DNA of 64,000 nucleotides, taken from the NCBI GenBank assembly GCA_018883245.1, contig VEQL01000003.1:1-64000 (forward strand), given 5' to 3'. A model generated the notes under the pieces. That model was not told the origin of the DNA. It was given only the letters and a program-made list of their open reading frames with translations, and did no database searches. Numbering within the stretch: position 1 is the stretch's first letter; each line of letters starts with the position of its first letter. This DNA comes from Chthoniobacterales bacterium. GTDB taxonomy: Bacteria; Verrucomicrobiota; Verrucomicrobiia; Chthoniobacterales; JACTMZ01. Below, one piece after another: positions 49,394 through 58,585 of this stretch. A program made the position numbers and the translations under genes.

Positions 49394-50809
49394 ATGCGGG
49401 CGTTTCTCAAGCGGTCGCTCCTGGTCCTGGCTTTCGCTGCCGTGGCGTCGCCGGTCGGGGCTGCTGACGGTGCGGCGTCCTGGAAAATAATGCGCTTGGG
49501 CGGGCGCGATTATCTCCCTGTCTCGCAGATCGCCGCATTTTACCGGATGCAAGCTGTCCCGCGCGGCGACCGTGGTGTCGCGCTTTCCTCCGCGGAGCGC
49601 AGCATGAGTTTCGAAAAAGGTTCGCGCGAGGCCCGCATCGACGGCGTCAAGCATTGGCTGTCGTTTCCGGCCCTTTACTTCGCCGGACAGTTTTACGTCT
49701 CGCGCATGGACATGGCCAAGACGATCGATCCGATGATGCGTCCGCAAAAAATCCCGGGTCTCAAACCCGTGCACACGGTGGTGCTCGACCCGGGGCACGG
49801 TGCGCACGATCGCGGGGCCGTCAATCGCTGGAACGCGGAGAAGAATTACAATCTCGACATAAGCCGACGCATACGCGCCTACCTCAAGCAGGCCGGGTTG
49901 AGGGTTGTCATAACAAGGAGCCGCGATGAGTTCATCCCGCTGGAGCGCCGGCCGGCGGTGGCCAACCGTCTCGGCGACGGGACAATTTTTGTCAGTGTTC
50001 ATTGCAACGCCTCGGGCGGGCGTGATTCCGTCGCCACCGGGTTCGAGGTTTTCTCCATGGCGCCGCGCGGCGCACCGAACAGCAACGACAGCTACCTGAC
50101 GCGCCGCAGTTTTTCCCCCGAACGCGGGCATGCGCACGACCGGGCGAGCAATGTGCTCGCGGCTTCGATCCAGAGTGCGAAGCTCGGACGCGTGCCGATG
50201 TTCGACCGCGGAGTCAAACGGGCGCGTTTTGCCGTCCTGCGCCACGCCTCGGTGCCCGCGGCGCTCATCGAGTGCGGGTTCATGTCCAACCGGCAGGACG
50301 CGCGCAAGCTGCACACCGTGGAATGGCGCGAGCGCCTCGCTCAATCGGTCGCGATGGGCATCCTCGAATTTTGCAAGCTGGCGTCCGGGGGCGGGCGACC
50401 CAAGACGCTGGCGCAATATCGCGCCGAGGAGCAAGAGGCCTTGGCTGCCGCCGGATGGGATTACCAGCCGCTTGCCGGCATCGGCAACCTCGTGCGCTCG
50501 CCGGTGCCGGGGGTGTCCGGTTGGCGCGCACTGCTCGACGGTCCGCTGTCCGAGGAGATGCCGCCTTTCCGCTTGGAGTATGAGCCGGCCGGATGGGTGC
50601 TCCTGGAATCGTGGGCCGCGGGCTCGGCCGAAGATGCGCGTTCTGCCGCCGCGACCGGCGGCGCGGGCGCCGAACAGGCGAGGGAGTGGCCAGATCCTCC
50701 GGTCGGTTGGCCGGAGCTGCGCGGGTGGCGGATACTTGTTCCCGTCCGCGCTGACGGCGAGATTTTTGTGCCCTTCGAGTCCCCTGAGGGCGCCCCGGTG
50801 GCCGACTAA
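49394..50809 (+). CDS. N-acetylmuramoyl-L-alanine amidase (AmiC/Amidase_3 type)
   Basis: A 471-residue exported cell-wall hydrolase with a signal peptide (RSLLVLAFAAVASPVGAA). A front domain of ~120 residues holds a copper-amine-oxidase-like/AMIN-type fold (GGRDYLPVSQIAAFY). The zinc amidase core follows: VVLDPGHGAHDRGAV (His and Glu region), LERRPAVANRL, SVHCNAS and AALIECGFMSN (catalytic Glu). It cleaves the bond between MurNAc and the stem peptide. The C-terminal ~130 residues are unassigned. It is coupled to the PagL-like gene and converges on pta, overlapping it by four bases. Confidence 0.92.
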   Translation: MRAFLKRSLLVLAFAAVASPVGAADGAASWKIMRLGGRDYLPVSQIAAFYRMQAVPRGDRGVALSSAERSMSFEKGSREARIDGVKHWLSFPALYFAGQFYVSRMDMAKTIDPMMRPQKIPGLKPVHTVVLDPGHGAHDRGAVNRWNAEKNYNLDISRRIRAYLKQAGLRVVITRSRDEFIPLERRPAVANRLGDGTIFVSVHCNASGGRDSVATGFEVFSMAPRGAPNSNDSYLTRRSFSPERGHAHDRASNVLAASIQSAKLGRVPMFDRGVKRARFAVLRHASVPAALIECGFMSNRQDARKLHTVEWRERLAQSVAMGILEFCKLASGGGRPKTLAQYRAEEQEALAAAGWDYQPLAGIGNLVRSPVPGVSGWRALLDGPLSEEMPPFRLEYEPAGWVLLESWAAGSAEDARSAAATGGAGAEQAREWPDPPVGWPELRGWRILVPVRADGEIFVPFESPEGAPVAD

Positions 50810-51864
50810 CGCGCGGCCCGGCGTTTCTTGTCTTCGTCGGCCATTTCCTGGAGCCGGCGCATCTCGATGGCCTGCAGTCCGACGATGGCCGCCACGGCGG
50901 TGATGGTGTCGGTGTCATCCGCGCGCGACACGTCGGCCGCCGGCTTGGTGAGTCCGGTGATGATCTGTCCGTAGGCGCGCCCGCAGAGGATGCCGGCGAG
51001 CTTGCCCGCGATGTGTCCGCTGTTGAGGTCGGGAAACACGAGGACGTTGGCCCGCCCGGCGACTGCGCCCGCCACGGACTTCGCCTTGGCCGCTCCGGGC
51101 AGCAACGCGGCGTCGAGTTCGAGTTCGCCGTCGATTTCCACTTCGAGGTGCTTCGCCTGCGCCTGCTGCCGGGCCAACGCGGCGGCCGCGGCGATTTTTT
51201 CCGTTCCCGGCGTGACGGAGCTTCCTTTGGTCGAGAAGCTCAGGAGGGCCACGCGCGGCGTGTCGCCCGTGAGCTGCCGGCAAAGGTGCGCCGATTGCAG
51301 GGCGATGGCGGCGAGCTGATGCACGTCGGGCGATGGGATGACGCCGCAGTCGCCGAGCACGAGAACGCCGCGGTGCCCGATGTCATCGCGCCCCGTGTCG
51401 GCTATGACACAGCTGCTTACCAGATGCTGCGCTCCGGAGGGCTTGACCACGCGCAGAAGCGGGCGCAGAAGGGCCTGGGTGGCCGATTCGATGCCGCCGA
51501 CCACGCCGTCGGCCCGGCCGTATTGCACCATCATCGCGGCATAATAGTTGGGGTTGAGCATGACCGTGCGCGCATCGGAAAGGCCGAGGTTCCGGTAGCG
51601 ATCGAGCGTCTCAAGGAAGCGGCAGAAGTCGGGCAGATCAGCCGAGTTTTCCGGGTTGATCACGCCGAGGTGATCGAAGGGTATGCGCTCACGTCGCGCG
51701 AGATCCTCCACCACGGCGCGGCGCCCCAGGAGAATCGGGACGCCGAGACCCAGTTCGTAAAACCGTCGACCGGCACGGAGAACGCGCGGGTTTTCTCCCT
51801 CCGGGAAAACGATGCGTTTCGGATGGCGTCGCAGCCGGGCGAAAACAGATTCGATGAATTGCAT
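50806..51864 (-). CDS. pta: Phosphate acetyltransferase (PTA/PTB family)
   Basis: A 352-residue enzyme that interconverts acetyl-CoA and acetyl phosphate. IVFPEGENPRVLRAG is the family start. The core phrases are MVQYGRADGVVGG, RGVLVLGDCGVIPSPD, ALLSFSTKGSS, NVLVFPDLNSGHIAGKL and GQIITGLTKPAADVSR, all typical of the PTA_PTB domain. A longer reading from 51945 would add 27 residues (LPAVSATLSASAQA) that look unlike the family. ATG 51864 was therefore preferred, with some doubt. No acetate kinase gene lies nearby. It diverges from mraZ, with 158 bases between start codons. Confidence 0.9.
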   Translation of the reverse strand: MQFIESVFARLRRHPKRIVFPEGENPRVLRAGRRFYELGLGVPILLGRRAVVEDLARRERIPFDHLGVINPENSADLPDFCRFLETLDRYRNLGLSDARTVMLNPNYYAAMMVQYGRADGVVGGIESATQALLRPLLRVVKPSGAQHLVSSCVIADTGRDDIGHRGVLVLGDCGVIPSPDVHQLAAIALQSAHLCRQLTGDTPRVALLSFSTKGSSVTPGTEKIAAAAALARQQAQAKHLEVEIDGELELDAALLPGAAKAKSVAGAVAGRANVLVFPDLNSGHIAGKLAGILCGRAYGQIITGLTKPAADVSRADDTDTITAVAAIVGLQAIEMRRLQEMADEDKKRRAAR

Positions 51865-51953
51865 GGCTTGCGCGCTGGCGGACAGCGTGGCCGAGACGGC
51901 GGGGAGTCTCAAGCACGGGCGGAAAAATTTCCGAGTTTTTTGCATGAAAGGGG

Positions 51954-51983
51954 TTGACGCTTGGTCGGCTTCAGTGGTTTAAA
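51954..51983 (+). promoter_or_regulatory. dcw-cluster promoter overlapping MraZ boxes
   Basis: TTGACG (51954-51959), an 18-base spacer and TTTAAA (51978-51983), or GTTTAA one base to the left at 17. It lies about 40 bases before the mraZ start. The first two AGTGG boxes lie in or over the -10 region, which suits repression. Confidence 0.5.
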
Positions 51984-52007
51984 GTGGGTAAAAGTGGTGC
52001 CAAATGG
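51973..52007 (+). promoter_or_regulatory. MraZ operator: four direct repeats at 10-bp spacing
   Basis: AGTGG occurs at 51973-51977, 51983-51987 and 51993-51997, and AATGG at 52003-52007, each exactly 10 bp apart. Known MraZ boxes are direct TGGG- or AAAGTG-type repeats with the same 10-bp pitch, next to mraZ itself. Finding the array right before mraZ and over its promoter is strong evidence for autoregulation. Confidence 0.8.
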
Positions 52008-52022
52008 CGCCCATTCCCTGAA

Positions 52023-52481
52023 ATGCCAAGATCAGCCCCAGCTCCAATTGTCTACGCCGGCGAGTTCCGCCATGCGGTCGATGCCAAGCACCGCGTGACA
52101 ATTCCCTCGCGTTGGCGGTCCGAGGACGACGGGGAGGAATTCTTTGCCGTGCCCGACCCCGCGGGAAAATTTCTGATGGTGATGCCCCCGCGGGAATTCG
52201 ACCGCGTGAAGGCCGATGTGGAGGCCAACCCCGCGATCGCGCCGGCCGACCGCCGCAAATTCATCCGCCGATTTTATGCCCTCGCGCAGTTGGTCGCCGT
52301 GGACAAGCAGGGCCGCGTGCTGCTGCCCGAGGAACCGTGCCGCCGCCTGGGACTCGAAGGCGAAGTGGTGCTCATCGGCAGCCACAGCCGAATGGAAATC
52401 TGGAACCCGCAACGTTGGGCGGCCGCGACGGCCGAAGAGGACGAAGTCTTCCGCCGGGTGGCGGGGGAGGTCGGCCTGTAG
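52023..52481 (+). CDS. mraZ: Transcriptional regulator MraZ
   Basis: A 152-residue DNA-binding protein of the dcw cluster, built of two AbrB-like swapped-hairpin halves. YAGEFRHAVDAKHRVTIPSRWR is the first conserved block. LAQLVAVDKQGRVLLPEEPCRRLG is the second. MraZ forms rings that bind 10-bp-spaced repeats upstream of its own gene, which are present here. ATG 52023 was chosen because an in-frame TTG at 51954 would start inside the -35 element. RsmH follows after 150 bases, the usual partner. Confidence 0.95.
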   Translation: MPRSAPAPIVYAGEFRHAVDAKHRVTIPSRWRSEDDGEEFFAVPDPAGKFLMVMPPREFDRVKADVEANPAIAPADRRKFIRRFYALAQLVAVDKQGRVLLPEEPCRRLGLEGEVVLIGSHSRMEIWNPQRWAAATAEEDEVFRRVAGEVGL

Positions 52482-52631
52482 CACGCCCTCGCTGCACGAA
52501 CCCCCGGACAACAAAACGCACGAGCATGGCAAAGCCAGGACGCAAGTTCGCCTTCGGTTTTTCCGCGAAAAAAGACGCGGCGGGCCGGGCGGAAGGTGCG
52601 GTCTGCCTCCGTCTGCGCGTGCGCAGCGTTT

Positions 52632-53621
52632 ATGAACAATTTGGCCTCCGAAAACCCGCAAACCAGCGCAAACATTGACGCGCCCTTCTGGCACCGCCCG
52701 GTAATGAGCACCGAGGTGGTAGCCATGCTGCGGCCCGCGTCCGGGCGCGTGTTTCTCGACGGGACCCTGGGCGGGGGCGGCCACAGCGGGGCTCTCCTCT
52801 CAGCCGGTGCGCGCGTGGTCGGGGTCGACCGCGATCCGGAAGCGTTGGCCGAGGCTTCGTCACGCCTCGCGAGCTACGGGGAAAACTTCCGCGCGGTGCG
52901 GGGAAATTTCGCCGATGCGGCGGAGCTGCCGCCCGTTCTCGATTCCGCTCCTTATGACGGGGCTGTCCTCGATCTTGGCGTCTCCTCCCATCAACTTGAC
53001 TCGGCGCATCGGGGGTTCAGCTTCCGCCATGACGGCCCGCTCGACATGCGCATGGACCCATCGCTGGGTGCAAGCGCGGCCGATCTGGTGAACACGGTCG
53101 AAGAGGGCGAACTGGCCCGCATTCTCCGCGAATACGGCGAAGAACCGCAGGCACGCCGCATTGCGCGGGCCATCGTGGCCGAGAGAAACCGGCTGCCTTT
53201 CACGCGCACCGGCCAGTTGGCGGCGCTGATCGAAAAGGTGCTCGGGCGCCGGGGACGGACGCATCCGGCCACCCGCTCATTCCAGGCCCTGCGCATCGCG
53301 GTGAATGACGAACTCGGTTCGCTTCGCCGCGCACTGGAATCCATCCCGGGGTTGCTGCGCGCCGGCGCGCGTCTGGTTGTCATCACTTTTCATTCGCTCG
53401 AAGACCGTCTGGTCAAAACGTTCTTCCGTGCGGGCAGCGAGCAGTGGCTCGATCGCCCCGAGTGGCCCGCACCTCAGCCCAATCCCGGATGGCGCTTCCG
53501 GGACCTGACCCGTCATCCGGTCGAAGCCGGCGCGGAGGAAGTGGCGGTCAACCCGCGGGCTCGCTCGGCGCGGTTGCGCGCCGTGGAAATCCTTGCCATG
53601 CAACAGGAGGTGGCGGCATGA
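52632..53621 (+). CDS. rsmH: 16S rRNA (cytosine(1402)-N(4))-methyltransferase
   Basis: A 329-residue SAM-dependent methyltransferase (MraW). FLDGTLGGGGHSGALL is the SAM-binding motif, and DGAVLDLGVSSHQLD is the DLGVSS signature. FSFRHDGPLDMRMD and the C-terminal FHSLEDRLVKTFFR complete the family. It methylates C1402 of 16S rRNA. ATG 52632 gives NNLASENPQ...FWHRPVM. ftsL starts at its stop codon (ATGA). Upstream lies a 150-bp gap containing a 50-codon frame (52526-52678) that I could not support as a gene. Confidence 0.95.
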   Translation: MNNLASENPQTSANIDAPFWHRPVMSTEVVAMLRPASGRVFLDGTLGGGGHSGALLSAGARVVGVDRDPEALAEASSRLASYGENFRAVRGNFADAAELPPVLDSAPYDGAVLDLGVSSHQLDSAHRGFSFRHDGPLDMRMDPSLGASAADLVNTVEEGELARILREYGEEPQARRIARAIVAERNRLPFTRTGQLAALIEKVLGRRGRTHPATRSFQALRIAVNDELGSLRRALESIPGLLRAGARLVVITFHSLEDRLVKTFFRAGSEQWLDRPEWPAPQPNPGWRFRDLTRHPVEAGAEEVAVNPRARSARLRAVEILAMQQEVAA

Positions 53622-53968
53622 GGCGTGCCGGGCACGACCATACCCTCCCGCTCGGACCACTCATGCGCTGGGTGGTGCTTGTTTTTCTGGCCGGACTGCT
53701 CGGACTTTGCTTCGTGCATATGAAGCACAAGCTCAAGGTGGACGGAGACCGCTGCCGCGACCTCGAGCAGTCCGTGGCCGACTTGGACGAGAAACTCAAG
53801 GTGGCCGACAACGAGATCATGCGCCTCACTTCGCGCCCGGCTCTCGAGCGGAGACGCGAGGAAGGATTCATCCGCATGATCGAAGTGCAGGCCAACCGCA
53901 TGGTGCGCCTGCGTCTGTCGGAAACGCAGTCGGCGCCGATTGCATCGGCCAGGGAGGTCGCGCCATGA
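53618..53968 (+). CDS. ftsL: FtsL-like septum protein
   Basis: A 116-residue bitopic protein. A short cytoplasmic start is followed by one transmembrane helix (RWVVLVFLAGLLGLCFVHM). A ~45-residue heptad-like coiled coil comes next (LEQSVADLDEKLKVADNEIMRL). Position between rsmH and the FtsI-like synthase, size and topology are those of FtsL, which bridges FtsB and FtsQ to FtsI. Sequence identity of FtsL is low in all bacteria, so the call rests on context and layout. An AGGAGG lies upstream, and the ATG overlaps the rsmH stop. Confidence 0.75.
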   Translation: MRRAGHDHTLPLGPLMRWVVLVFLAGLLGLCFVHMKHKLKVDGDRCRDLEQSVADLDEKLKVADNEIMRLTSRPALERRREEGFIRMIEVQANRMVRLRLSETQSAPIASAREVAP

Positions 53969-55725
53969 GCAGCGCCACCCATCGCCGGGCGGGCATTGTT
54001 TGCGTCGGGTTGGCCCTCGTCTTCAGTGTTTATTCCGGGCGTCTCGTTCATCTTCAGGTCGGCAAGCACCGCGAATACGCGCAGCTGGCGGTGGAAAAAA
54101 CCGCCAAGAAAAAAGTTGTTCCGGCCGAGCGGGGAATAATCACCGATCTCCACGGCGAGCCGCTGGCGGTCAATGTCCCGATTTACTCCGTCGTGGTGGA
54201 CGGCACGCTGGTCACGGATCGTCCCCGCCTTGTCGGTATTCTCGCGCGGATGCTGAATCTTCCGCCGGAGCAAGTCACGGAGCGTATTGCGCCGAAACGA
54301 CCCTATATCGTCGTGCAGCGCAAGGTGGATGCCGAGACAAAGAGCCTTCTGCAGAAGGAACTCGCCGCCGCGAAACTGCGCGGCGTGATGTATGAGCCCG
54401 AGCCGGTGCGCAATTACCCCAACGACTCGATGCTCGCGCCGGTCATCGGATTCCTCGACCACGACGGCCGCGGTGTCCAGGGCGTGGAGATGATGATGGA
54501 GCCCTACCTGCGGGGCGAAGACGGATTCGTTTACACATCGCGCGATCGTATGGGCCGGGAAATCGTCGCCTACCGCGGCCTGGAGCGACCGCCGCGCAAC
54601 GGTATGACTGTGCAGCTCACCATCGACCTGGCGCTGCAGGACATTGTCGAGGAGGAATTGGCCGAGGCCTACCGCATGCTCCGGCCGCGCATGATCTCTG
54701 CCGTGTTTGTGCGTCCGCGCACGGGTGAGATTCTGGCCATGGCGACGCTGCCGGGTTTCAACCCGAACGACCCTGGCAACGCGGAGATCGAATCGACGAA
54801 GAACCGCTCGATCATCGACATCTACGAGCCGGGATCGACTTTCAAACTGGTTGTCATCTCGGCGGCTCTCGAAGAGCGCGCCGTCACCCCCGAGACGGTC
54901 TTCCACTGTGAGAACGGCAGCTTCGCCTACGCGGGGAAAACGCTGCGCGACGTGCACGCCTACGGCCCGCTTTCGGTCCACGACATCCTCGTCAAGTCGT
55001 CGAACATCGGCTGCGCGAAAATCGCGATGCATCTCGGCGCGGACAAATTCCACGAATACATCCGCCGGTTCGGGTTCGGCGAGCGCACCGGCCTCGGTCT
55101 TCCCGGCGAAGTCGGCGGAATCGTGCGTCCGCGCCACAGTTGGAACGGGCTTTCCATCACGCGCGTCCCCATGGGCCACGAAGTCGCGGTCACGCCGCTG
55201 CAGGTGGTCATGGCGCTTTCCGCCATCGCCAACGGCGGCAACATGATGCTTCCGCAGATCGTGCAGTCGGTTCGTGACGATTCCGGCAAAGAGGTCGTTT
55301 CCCTGCGTCCGCAGGTTGTGCGCCGCGTGGTGAGTGAGGAAACGGCCGCGCAGGTTTCTTCGGCTTTGGCAGAAGTGGTGAGCGAACGCGGCACGGCGCG
55401 CCTTGCGGCATTCCCGGGGTTCCGCGTCGCGGGCAAGACGGGGACCGCGCAGCGCGTCGATCCCAAGGGCGGCTACACGCCGGGAAAGTATGTGGTTTCC
55501 TTCGCGGGATATTTCCCCGCGGGTAATCCCGAGGTCGCCGGTATCGTGGTGGTGGACGACCCCGGCACGCCCGGGGGCACGGTTTACGGCGGCACCATCG
55601 CTGCGCCGATTTTCTCGGCCATCGGCGCCCGGATGGCCCGACAAATGGACCTTGAACCCGAGACGGAGGAATCCGACGGGGCCACCGTCGCCCTGCTGCC
55701 GGCGGTGCAGGAGGAGGTCAATTGA
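53965..55725 (+). CDS. ftsI: Peptidoglycan transpeptidase FtsI (PBP3-like)
   Basis: A 586-residue class B penicillin-binding protein that crosslinks septal peptidoglycan. An N-terminal membrane anchor is followed by a dimerisation/pedestal domain (RGIITDLHGEPLAVNVP). The transpeptidase domain begins near 210 and has the SxxK serine at Ser291 (STFK), SSN at 345-347 and KTGTA at 491-495. This is the order of the FtsI/PBP2B branch. It overlaps ftsL by four bases (ATGA). murE follows through an overlap or a 5-base gap. Confidence 0.96.
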   Translation: MSSATHRRAGIVCVGLALVFSVYSGRLVHLQVGKHREYAQLAVEKTAKKKVVPAERGIITDLHGEPLAVNVPIYSVVVDGTLVTDRPRLVGILARMLNLPPEQVTERIAPKRPYIVVQRKVDAETKSLLQKELAAAKLRGVMYEPEPVRNYPNDSMLAPVIGFLDHDGRGVQGVEMMMEPYLRGEDGFVYTSRDRMGREIVAYRGLERPPRNGMTVQLTIDLALQDIVEEELAEAYRMLRPRMISAVFVRPRTGEILAMATLPGFNPNDPGNAEIESTKNRSIIDIYEPGSTFKLVVISAALEERAVTPETVFHCENGSFAYAGKTLRDVHAYGPLSVHDILVKSSNIGCAKIAMHLGADKFHEYIRRFGFGERTGLGLPGEVGGIVRPRHSWNGLSITRVPMGHEVAVTPLQVVMALSAIANGGNMMLPQIVQSVRDDSGKEVVSLRPQVVRRVVSEETAAQVSSALAEVVSERGTARLAAFPGFRVAGKTGTAQRVDPKGGYTPGKYVVSFAGYFPAGNPEVAGIVVVDDPGTPGGTVYGGTIAAPIFSAIGARMARQMDLEPETEESDGATVALLPAVQEEVN

Positions 55726-55730
55726 GCGGC

Positions 55731-57230
55731 ATGAATCTCTCGAAAATCATCGCGGCTCTGCCGCCCGGATCGCTCGAGGTGGCGGGGACGCCCGATCGCG
55801 AGATCGCATCGATCACGCACGACTCGCGTCGCGCCGGCCCCGGGTCGCTTTTTGCCGCGCTGCCAAGTGTCACCCCGGGGCGCGGTGCTGAAGCGGCGGC
55901 TGGCGGCGCGGGCTTCGTGCTCGAGGCCGTCGAAAAAGGCGCTGTCGCCGTGCTCACGTCCGCGGACATCGATGTTCCGCGCGCCACCGTGCTGCGCGTT
56001 CCGGATCCGCGGGCTGCGCTGGCGGATGCCGCCGCGCGCTTTTACCGCCACCCGTCGCTGCAGTTGCAGACCGCGGGTGTCACCGGCACTAACGGCAAAA
56101 CCACGACGACCTTCCTCATCAAGCATCTTCTCGACGCGGCCGAGCGGCCTTGCGGCCTCATCGGCACGGTGCGCTACGTGATCGGGCCGCGCGAGCTTCC
56201 GGCTGCGCGCACCACGCCGGAGGTTGATGACGTGCAGCGTCTCATGCGGGAGATGCGCGACGTCAACTGCCGCGCTGCCGTCATGGAAGTCTCCAGCCAT
56301 GCGCTAGACCAGGGACGCGTGCGCGGGGTCGAGTTCGACGCGGCGGTATTCACCAATCTCACGCAGGACCATCTCGATTACCACGGGACGATGGAGGAAT
56401 ACTTCCGCGCCAAGAGCCGCCTTTTCGCGCAACTCGCGGCGCAGAAGCAGAAGCGCGGAAAGGCCGTGCTCAACATCGACGACCGCCACGGCCGGCGGCT
56501 GCTCGACGAGTCGGGCGAAGCCGTGGAGGCAATCACCTACGGCCAATCGTCGAACGCGATGTTCCGCGCGACCGATCTGCGCACGGACTTGCACGGGACC
56601 CGCTACACGCTGGAAGCGGGAGGGAGGAGTTTTCTCGTCCGGCTTCCCCTGTTCGGTTCCTTCAACGTTTACAACTCTCTTGCAGCACTCGCGGCCATGC
56701 AGGCGTTGGGGCACGACGTTCGCAAGTCGGTCGATGCCTTGAAGAGCGCTCCGCAGGTTCCGGGGCGCCTCGAAATGGTCCAAGGGCCCAAGTCGTTCCG
56801 CGTGTTCGTCGATTACGCGCACACGCCGGATGCTTTGGAAAATGTCCTTCGCACCCTGCGTTCACTCGAACCGCAGCGGCTGGTCACTGTCTTCGGTTGC
56901 GGGGGCGACCGCGATCGCGCCAAGCGCGGGCCGATGGGGCGTGCCGCGGAAGAGCTTTCCGACTGGTGCATCGTCACCTCCGACAACCCGCGCAGCGAGG
57001 ATCCCGAGGCCATTTGCCGCGAAATCACCGCGGCCCTGCGCGGAAACAACCACGAGGTGGTGACCGACCGCCGCGCAGCCATCCGCCGGGCTGTGGCCAT
57101 GGCGGGCCCGGGTGACATTGTGCTCATCGCGGGCAAAGGGCACGAGGACTACCAGGAATTTGCCGACCGCAAGGTCCCGTTTGACGACGTTGCCGAATCA
57201 GCAGCGGCTATCAGGGGGAAGGCTGCGTGA
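55731..57230 (+). CDS. murE: UDP-MurNAc-tripeptide synthetase (meso-DAP-adding)
   Basis: A 499-residue ligase that adds the third residue to the peptidoglycan stem. ATP-binding reads GVTGTNGKTTTTFL. EVSSHALDQGR and DYAHTPDALENVL are family landmarks. SDNPRSEDPEAI contains DNPR, the motif for meso-diaminopimelate instead of lysine, so the organism's peptidoglycan is predicted to be DAP-type. ATG 55731 gives NLSKIIAALPP. A TTG at 55722 has a better-spaced AGGAGG and would overlap the ftsI stop (TTGA), so it may be the true start. Confidence 0.95.
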   Translation: MNLSKIIAALPPGSLEVAGTPDREIASITHDSRRAGPGSLFAALPSVTPGRGAEAAAGGAGFVLEAVEKGAVAVLTSADIDVPRATVLRVPDPRAALADAAARFYRHPSLQLQTAGVTGTNGKTTTTFLIKHLLDAAERPCGLIGTVRYVIGPRELPAARTTPEVDDVQRLMREMRDVNCRAAVMEVSSHALDQGRVRGVEFDAAVFTNLTQDHLDYHGTMEEYFRAKSRLFAQLAAQKQKRGKAVLNIDDRHGRRLLDESGEAVEAITYGQSSNAMFRATDLRTDLHGTRYTLEAGGRSFLVRLPLFGSFNVYNSLAALAAMQALGHDVRKSVDALKSAPQVPGRLEMVQGPKSFRVFVDYAHTPDALENVLRTLRSLEPQRLVTVFGCGGDRDRAKRGPMGRAAEELSDWCIVTSDNPRSEDPEAICREITAALRGNNHEVVTDRRAAIRRAVAMAGPGDIVLIAGKGHEDYQEFADRKVPFDDVAESAAAIRGKAA

Positions 57231-58585
57231 TGGATCCGACACCGATTCAACTCATTGCAGGGGCCTGCGGCGGCAAACTTTTGCGCGGGGATGGGAACCG
57301 TGCGGTGGACTGCATATCGAAAGATTCGCGCACCATCGCCCCCGGGAGCCTTTATTGGGCTTTGCAGGGCGAAAACCACGACGGCCACGACTTCGCGTCA
57401 GCCGCGGCGGCGGCCGGGGCGGCGGCTGCCGTGGTCGGGCGCGAGCCTGCCGGATGGCCGGCGCACCTGCCCCTCGTTCTTGTGGATGACACCCAGGATG
57501 CGCTGACCCGCCTTGCCGCGTGGCATCGCGACCGTCTGCACGCACGTGTCATCTGCATCACCGGAAGCAACGGAAAAACCAGCACGAAAGATTTCACGGC
57601 TTCCGTTGCTGCCACGCGTTTCGCCGTCAACAAGACCGAGGGCAACTTGAACAACCACCTCGGCCTGCCGCTGACGATCCTGACCGCCAAAACAACCGAC
57701 GAGGTTGCGGTGTGGGAGATCGGCATGAATCACGAAGGGGAGATCGCCGCGCTGGCGCGGTTGGCGCGCCCGGACATCGGCATCATCACCAACGTGGGCG
57801 TGGCACACATCGAATTTCTCGGGTCGCGCGAAGCGATCGCGCGGGAAAAAGGCGCACTGGCCGAGGCCTTGGGTCCGGACGCCGTGCTCGCGATGCCTTG
57901 CGATGACGACTTCACGGCAACGATCTGCGCCCGGACGAAAGCGCGGGTCGTTCTCGCGGGGGCGGACGGGCGCCTGAGCGCGGAGAGTCTCCGTCCCGCG
58001 GCGAACGGCCTCGATTTCGAACTTGTTTCCGGAAAAGAGCGCGTCGCGGCGCATCTTCCGGTTTTCGGCGAGCACATGGTGCGCAACGCGTTGTTGGCCG
58101 TGGCGGCCGGACTCGAGCTGGGGCTGAGTCTCCGCGAATGTGCGTCCGGCCTTGCCTCGACCAAGCTGTCCGCGCGTCGTCTGGCTTGCCTCGATGTGCG
58201 GGGTGTCACCGTTCTCGACGACAGTTACAATGCCAACCCGGATTCGATGGAGGCCGCGTTGCACGCGCTGCGCGGTTTGCCCGGCGGAGGCAAACGCTTT
58301 GCCGTGCTTGGGCGGATGGGCGAACTCGGTTCCTACGCGGAGGAAGGTTACCGGCGCGTGGGCCGGACGGCCGCGGGCACGATCGACATTCTCATCGCCG
58401 TTGGGCCGGAAACGGGAGTCATGGCCGAGGAGGCCGAGTCGGCCGGGGCGCGCGAAGTGCGCCGCGCTTCCGACACTTCGGAGGCCGCGCGCTTGCTGCG
58501 CGATCTCGCGCGTCCGGGCGACGCGGTTGTCATCAAGGGTAGCCGCGCGGCGCGCATGGAACGGGTTTTGGAGGAGTTTTCCTGA
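57230..58585 (+). CDS. murF: UDP-MurNAc-tripeptide:D-Ala-D-Ala ligase
   Basis: A 451-residue Mur ligase that attaches D-Ala-D-Ala to the stem peptide. CITGSNGKTSTKDFTAS is the ATP-binding loop. NKTEGNLNNHLGLPLTIL and ELGVAHIEFLGSREAIA-type wording follow. DDSYNANPDSMEAAL is the MurF signature. KGSRAARMERVL closes the protein. The ATG overlaps the murE stop by one base. A GTG three bases earlier is an alternative. mraY starts at its stop codon (TGATG). Confidence 0.95.
   Translation: MDPTPIQLIAGACGGKLLRGDGNRAVDCISKDSRTIAPGSLYWALQGENHDGHDFASAAAAAGAAAAVVGREPAGWPAHLPLVLVDDTQDALTRLAAWHRDRLHARVICITGSNGKTSTKDFTASVAATRFAVNKTEGNLNNHLGLPLTILTAKTTDEVAVWEIGMNHEGEIAALARLARPDIGIITNVGVAHIEFLGSREAIAREKGALAEALGPDAVLAMPCDDDFTATICARTKARVVLAGADGRLSAESLRPAANGLDFELVSGKERVAAHLPVFGEHMVRNALLAVAAGLELGLSLRECASGLASTKLSARRLACLDVRGVTVLDDSYNANPDSMEAALHALRGLPGGGKRFAVLGRMGELGSYAEEGYRRVGRTAAGTIDILIAVGPETGVMAEEAESAGAREVRRASDTSEAARLLRDLARPGDAVVIKGSRAARMERVLEEFS

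Follow-up and report, generated by a model that had tools for sequence, protein, structure and literature searches.

A conserved array of four putative MraZ boxes at the mraZ promoter of the dcw cluster in a Chthoniobacterales bacterium

The sequence directly ahead of mraZ in a Chthoniobacterales bacterium contains four short direct repeats, which raises the question whether they are the operator of the regulator encoded by this first dcw gene and, if so, whether they are of the kind found in mollicutes or in Escherichia coli. We addressed this question in a stretch of 64,000 nucleotides (assembly GCA_018883245.1, contig VEQL01000003.1, positions 1 to 64,000), referred to here as the window. 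The original prediction of three AGTGG boxes and one AATGG box at an exact pitch ahead of mraZ was confirmed at the same positions. On the plus strand, AGTGG occurs as box 1 (51973..51977), box 2 (51983..51987, AAAGTGGG in context) and box 3 (51993..51997), and AATGG as box 4 (52003..52007). The pitch is exactly 10 bp throughout, and all four boxes are flanked by TTGACG (51954) on one side and the mraZ start (52023) on the other. The sequence from 51950 to 52030 reads ...GGTTGACG-CTTGGTCGGCTTCAGTGG-TTTAAA-GTGGGTAAAAGTGGTGCCAAATGGCGCCC...GAAATG. As expected of an MraZ operator, the array consists of at least three direct repeats with GTGG or GTG cores at an exact 10-bp pitch, lies in the promoter region of the mraZ gene that opens the dcw cluster, and is conserved in related mraZ-bearing genomes. 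A candidate fifth box, GGTCG at 51963, is in register but is not conserved in the genus (40% identity), so that four was retained as the right count.

The presumed binding protein is encoded by mraZ itself (52023..52481, plus strand, 152 amino acids). It matches PF02381 with 64.4 bits (cut-off 23) and shows the two half-domains of the MraZ protein family, with the DXXXR motifs DAKHR and DKQGR. It aligns with solved MraZ structures at an E value of 3e-11, and its best NCBIfam match, TIGR00242, scores 86.6 bits, which is under the cut-off of 98.35. The gene is present as a single copy in the genome; elsewhere in the phylum, several genomes have mraZ twice, as separate genes (G090 on contigs 40 and 60, G072 on contigs 2 and 17, G151 at two places on contig 1). 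Downstream on the plus strand follow the second cluster gene, rsmH/mraW (52596..53621; PF01795 and TIGR00006 over cut-off), an open frame holding ftsI (53593..55725; PF00905 and PF03717), whose true start lies downstream of the listed one, a murE-like Mur ligase gene (55722..57230; PF08245 and PF02875) and a murF-like one (57227..58585; PF08245, PF02875 and PF01225). The succession of mraZ, rsmH, ftsI and two Mur ligase genes is the dcw order. On the other side lies a divergent phosphate acetyltransferase gene (50806-51945, minus strand), set apart from mraZ by a short intergenic region. This neighbourhood is kept in the genus; among mraZ loci sampled elsewhere in the phylum it was not found.

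The array had also been predicted to overlap the -10 element of a TTGACG/TTTAAA promoter. The -35-like hexamer TTGACG (51954..51959, plus strand) and the -10-like hexamer TTTAAA (51978..51983, plus strand) are separated by a spacer of 18 bp, and TTTAAA occupies precisely the 6 bp that link the GTGG cores of boxes 1 and 2. The overlap therefore holds, with a -10 that is only TATAAT-like and has no terminal T. A strict sigma-70 scan, which demands T at position 6, calls no promoter here, and the promoter assignment therefore rests on conservation: across 11 genomes of the genus, GTTGAC is 97% and the linker 91.5% identical, the latter appearing as TTTAAA, TTAAAA or TCTAAA. Just upstream of the promoter, a short AT-rich hairpin with a run of T after it (51920-51933) resembles a terminator on the plus strand. 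At the other end of the array, the ATG inside box 4 starts a frame of five codons, ATG GCG CCC ATT CCC TGA (52004-52026), which ends at TGAAATG, just ahead of the mraZ start. The majority of the genus members have a comparable short frame with CCCTGA at its end; it may be due to chance or represent a leader ORF.

Conservation in close relatives had been set beforehand as the check on which the prediction could fail. The array is present in all 11 genus genomes, each of which has one exact three-box site. The GTGG cores of boxes 1, 2 and 3 are 100% identical in the genus and the core of box 4 is 95.5% identical, reading ATGG rather than GTGG in the relatives as well. For comparison, identity averages 38% in the far-upstream DNA and is 34% in the spacer. 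Such a pattern is expected from a -35 element, a -10 element and four boxes that are bound. In the wider order, for which pattern-match positions were compared with mraZ positions, the strict three-box pattern lies immediately ahead of mraZ in 25 of the 38 genomes sampled. The closest named records are metagenome assemblies of Chthoniobacterales or Verrucomicrobia. Two genomes of the order carry a second three-box match remote from mraZ (L048 on contig 2 of G037, L069 on contig 86 of G022), which is either a chance match or an additional MraZ target.

We then extended the comparison to the phylum. In 138 distinct mraZ upstream regions, GTGG pairs were counted 96, 58, 26 and 15 times at spacings of 10, 20, 30 and 40 bp, respectively, and 0-9 times at other spacings, while the complement word CCAC on the same strand gave no spacing peak at these loci. 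The 10-bp peak was kept in 66 divergent representatives, reduced to less than 55% MraZ identity (46 pairs, with at most 2 at any other spacing between 1 and 19 bp). Of the 66, 30 passed an array score that was never attained in shuffles. Many of the remaining representatives have arrays with changed cores (ATGG/TTGG, GTGT or GGGG), which suggests a drift of MraZ specificity. Examples of GGGG, GTGT and ATGG/TTGG arrays with the same 10-bp pitch upstream of mraZ are seen at L117, L127, L163, L103 and L164, which belong to other families of the phylum. When the drift from GTGG to ATGG was compared with MraZ residues, many alignment columns differed, but the groups are different families and phylogeny confounds the comparison, so that no claim is made. 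In other classes, what look like additional boxes some 41 bp past the first one were not counted, as on inspection they resemble start-codon contexts. Beyond the phylum, similar arrays were found in one actinobacterium and in Dehalococcoidia.

The position of the arrays relative to the promoter is likewise shared. Of 30 divergent arrays, 27 are preceded by TTGAC at a distance of no more than 40 bp, compared to 0.8 expected. In 27 of the 30 divergent relatives with arrays, the first box follows TTGAC by 7-30 bp, mostly by 9-10 or 19-20 bp; in the window the distance is 20 bp. Periodicity of this distance is moderately supported, as a period of 10 was the best of those tried (R 0.80), with 9 and 11 close behind (0.75 and 0.74). 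With the usual spacer of 17-18 bp, the -10 falls in the linker between two boxes, like TTTAAA in the window. At one Dehalococcoidia locus, the first box is located 37 bp after TTGAC, beyond the -10. We consider it about an even bet that, across the phylum, the operator is interleaved with the core promoter, in a preferred helical register and with the -10 as a linker, that RNA polymerase and the MraZ ring compete for this DNA, and that the drifted cores imply matching shifts in MraZ specificity.

Judged by its conservation, the array is a real and functional feature, and the four repeats are very probably the operator of MraZ. The array itself, the identity of mraZ, the dcw order and the relatives all agree with the predicted MraZ boxes at the mraZ/dcw promoter, as far as sequence comparison can tell. 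What we infer is that the MraZ of the window binds the array, that it does so as a ring, and that it represses and does not activate. A single MraZ ring, an octamer or similar, would touch the GTGG cores in succession, all on the same face of the DNA and each a helical turn from the next. Bound to all four cores, MraZ would cover the -10 and the start region and, most likely, repress its own cluster; the position of the boxes over the promoter likewise suggests that MraZ covers and represses it.

The alternative that survives best keeps the same operator and makes MraZ mainly an activator, which recruits or stabilises RNA polymerase at a weak -10. The poor -10 and the long 18-bp spacer would fit, as both are seen at activated promoters, and an activating role was reported for the MraZ of mycoplasmas in another study, according to the citation in PMC7761207; given this report, the site does not fix the sign of regulation. 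However, the boxes overlap the -10 and the expected start site, as is usual for repressors, and are not located upstream of the -35, and MraZ represses its own cluster in E. coli and Mycoplasma genitalium (PMC8475190). We therefore regard activation as unlikely. It is far less probable that the repeats are the site of another regulator, or an RNA leader element, that precedes mraZ by coincidence. With a transcription start near 51990, boxes 3 and 4 would be part of the leader RNA, but the boxes reach upstream of the expected start site too, the arrays travel with mraZ across the phylum and beyond, and the same box and pitch make up the MraZ site known from E. coli, Burkholderia and Mollicutes. 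A chance or low-complexity repeat can be dismissed as practically negligible and already refuted by conservation: short G-rich words are common in this GC-rich genome, but no such array is expected even allowing three mismatches (100 dinucleotide-preserving shuffles of the window), each genus member has its one exact site, and the cores are nearly perfectly conserved compared to 34-38% in the flanks.

A search of the whole 2.9-Mb genome found the exact three-box pattern at a single site, at mraZ, whereas the reversed pattern gave no match and no other MraZ boxes were present at 0 mismatches. The sole other place within three mismatches of the four-box pattern, on contig 28, is a weak and unrelated match that was taken as chance.

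An MraZ operator ahead of mraZ would, on strong comparative evidence, add an uncultured verrucomicrobial lineage to those in which this autoregulatory site is known. Moreover, the phylum-wide arrays, with their preferred promoter register and drifting cores, lend themselves to tests of how the boxes are read by MraZ, and they can be used to ask whether the position of the operator sets the strength or the sign of dcw control.

Comparison with known MraZ sites does away with the distinction between an E. coli and a mollicute box type. In the original prediction, the array had been said to resemble the mollicute type, on account of the AAAGTGG wording and the four boxes, more than the E. coli TGGG type. 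The resemblance to the mollicute site is there, in wording and in the 10-bp pitch (PMC5282649). However, the motif published for mollicutes, which are wall-less and AT-rich organisms, is given in PMC5282649 and PMC8475190 as three units, (AAAGTGKN3)3, and tolerates GTGT. In E. coli K-12, the sequence ahead of mraZ, TTTCAGTGGGAAATTGTGGGGCAAAGTGGGAATAAGGGGTGAG, holds four in-step repeats, CAGTGGG, TTGTGGG, CAAAGTGGG and AAGGGG, at the same 10-bp pitch. The array of the window resembles this operator (mraZ1p) in its pitch, its (A)AGTGGG cores, its place directly ahead of mraZ and the 18-bp promoter spacer, the -35 of E. coli being TTGACA. Burkholderia cenocepacia has four 7-nt repeats with 3-nt spacers at its mraZ promoter, PmraBc, and its MraZ gel-shifts a promoter fragment holding them; a GTG repeat is common to Bacillus subtilis, E. 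coli and mycoplasmas (PMC7761207). Because E. coli has CAAAGTGGG and B. cenocepacia has four repeats, AAAGTGG wording and a set of four boxes are not a mollicute signature, and neither wording nor number separated a mollicute from a proteobacterial type in the comparison with these two species. 'TGGG' and 'AAAGTGG' differ in where the same box has been trimmed, and the contrast lies in the notation. Nor is the array notable for a diderm, as had been supposed: B. cenocepacia is one, and similar arrays occur throughout this diderm phylum. What differs is the position of the array on the promoter. In E. coli the first box follows TTGAC by 37 bp, downstream of the -10, and in B. cenocepacia the repeats likewise come after the -10 and extend over the start site (PMC7761207), whereas in the window they begin upstream of the -10, which falls between boxes 1 and 2. 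This placement is the sole departure from the well-studied examples, and it is common to much of the phylum.
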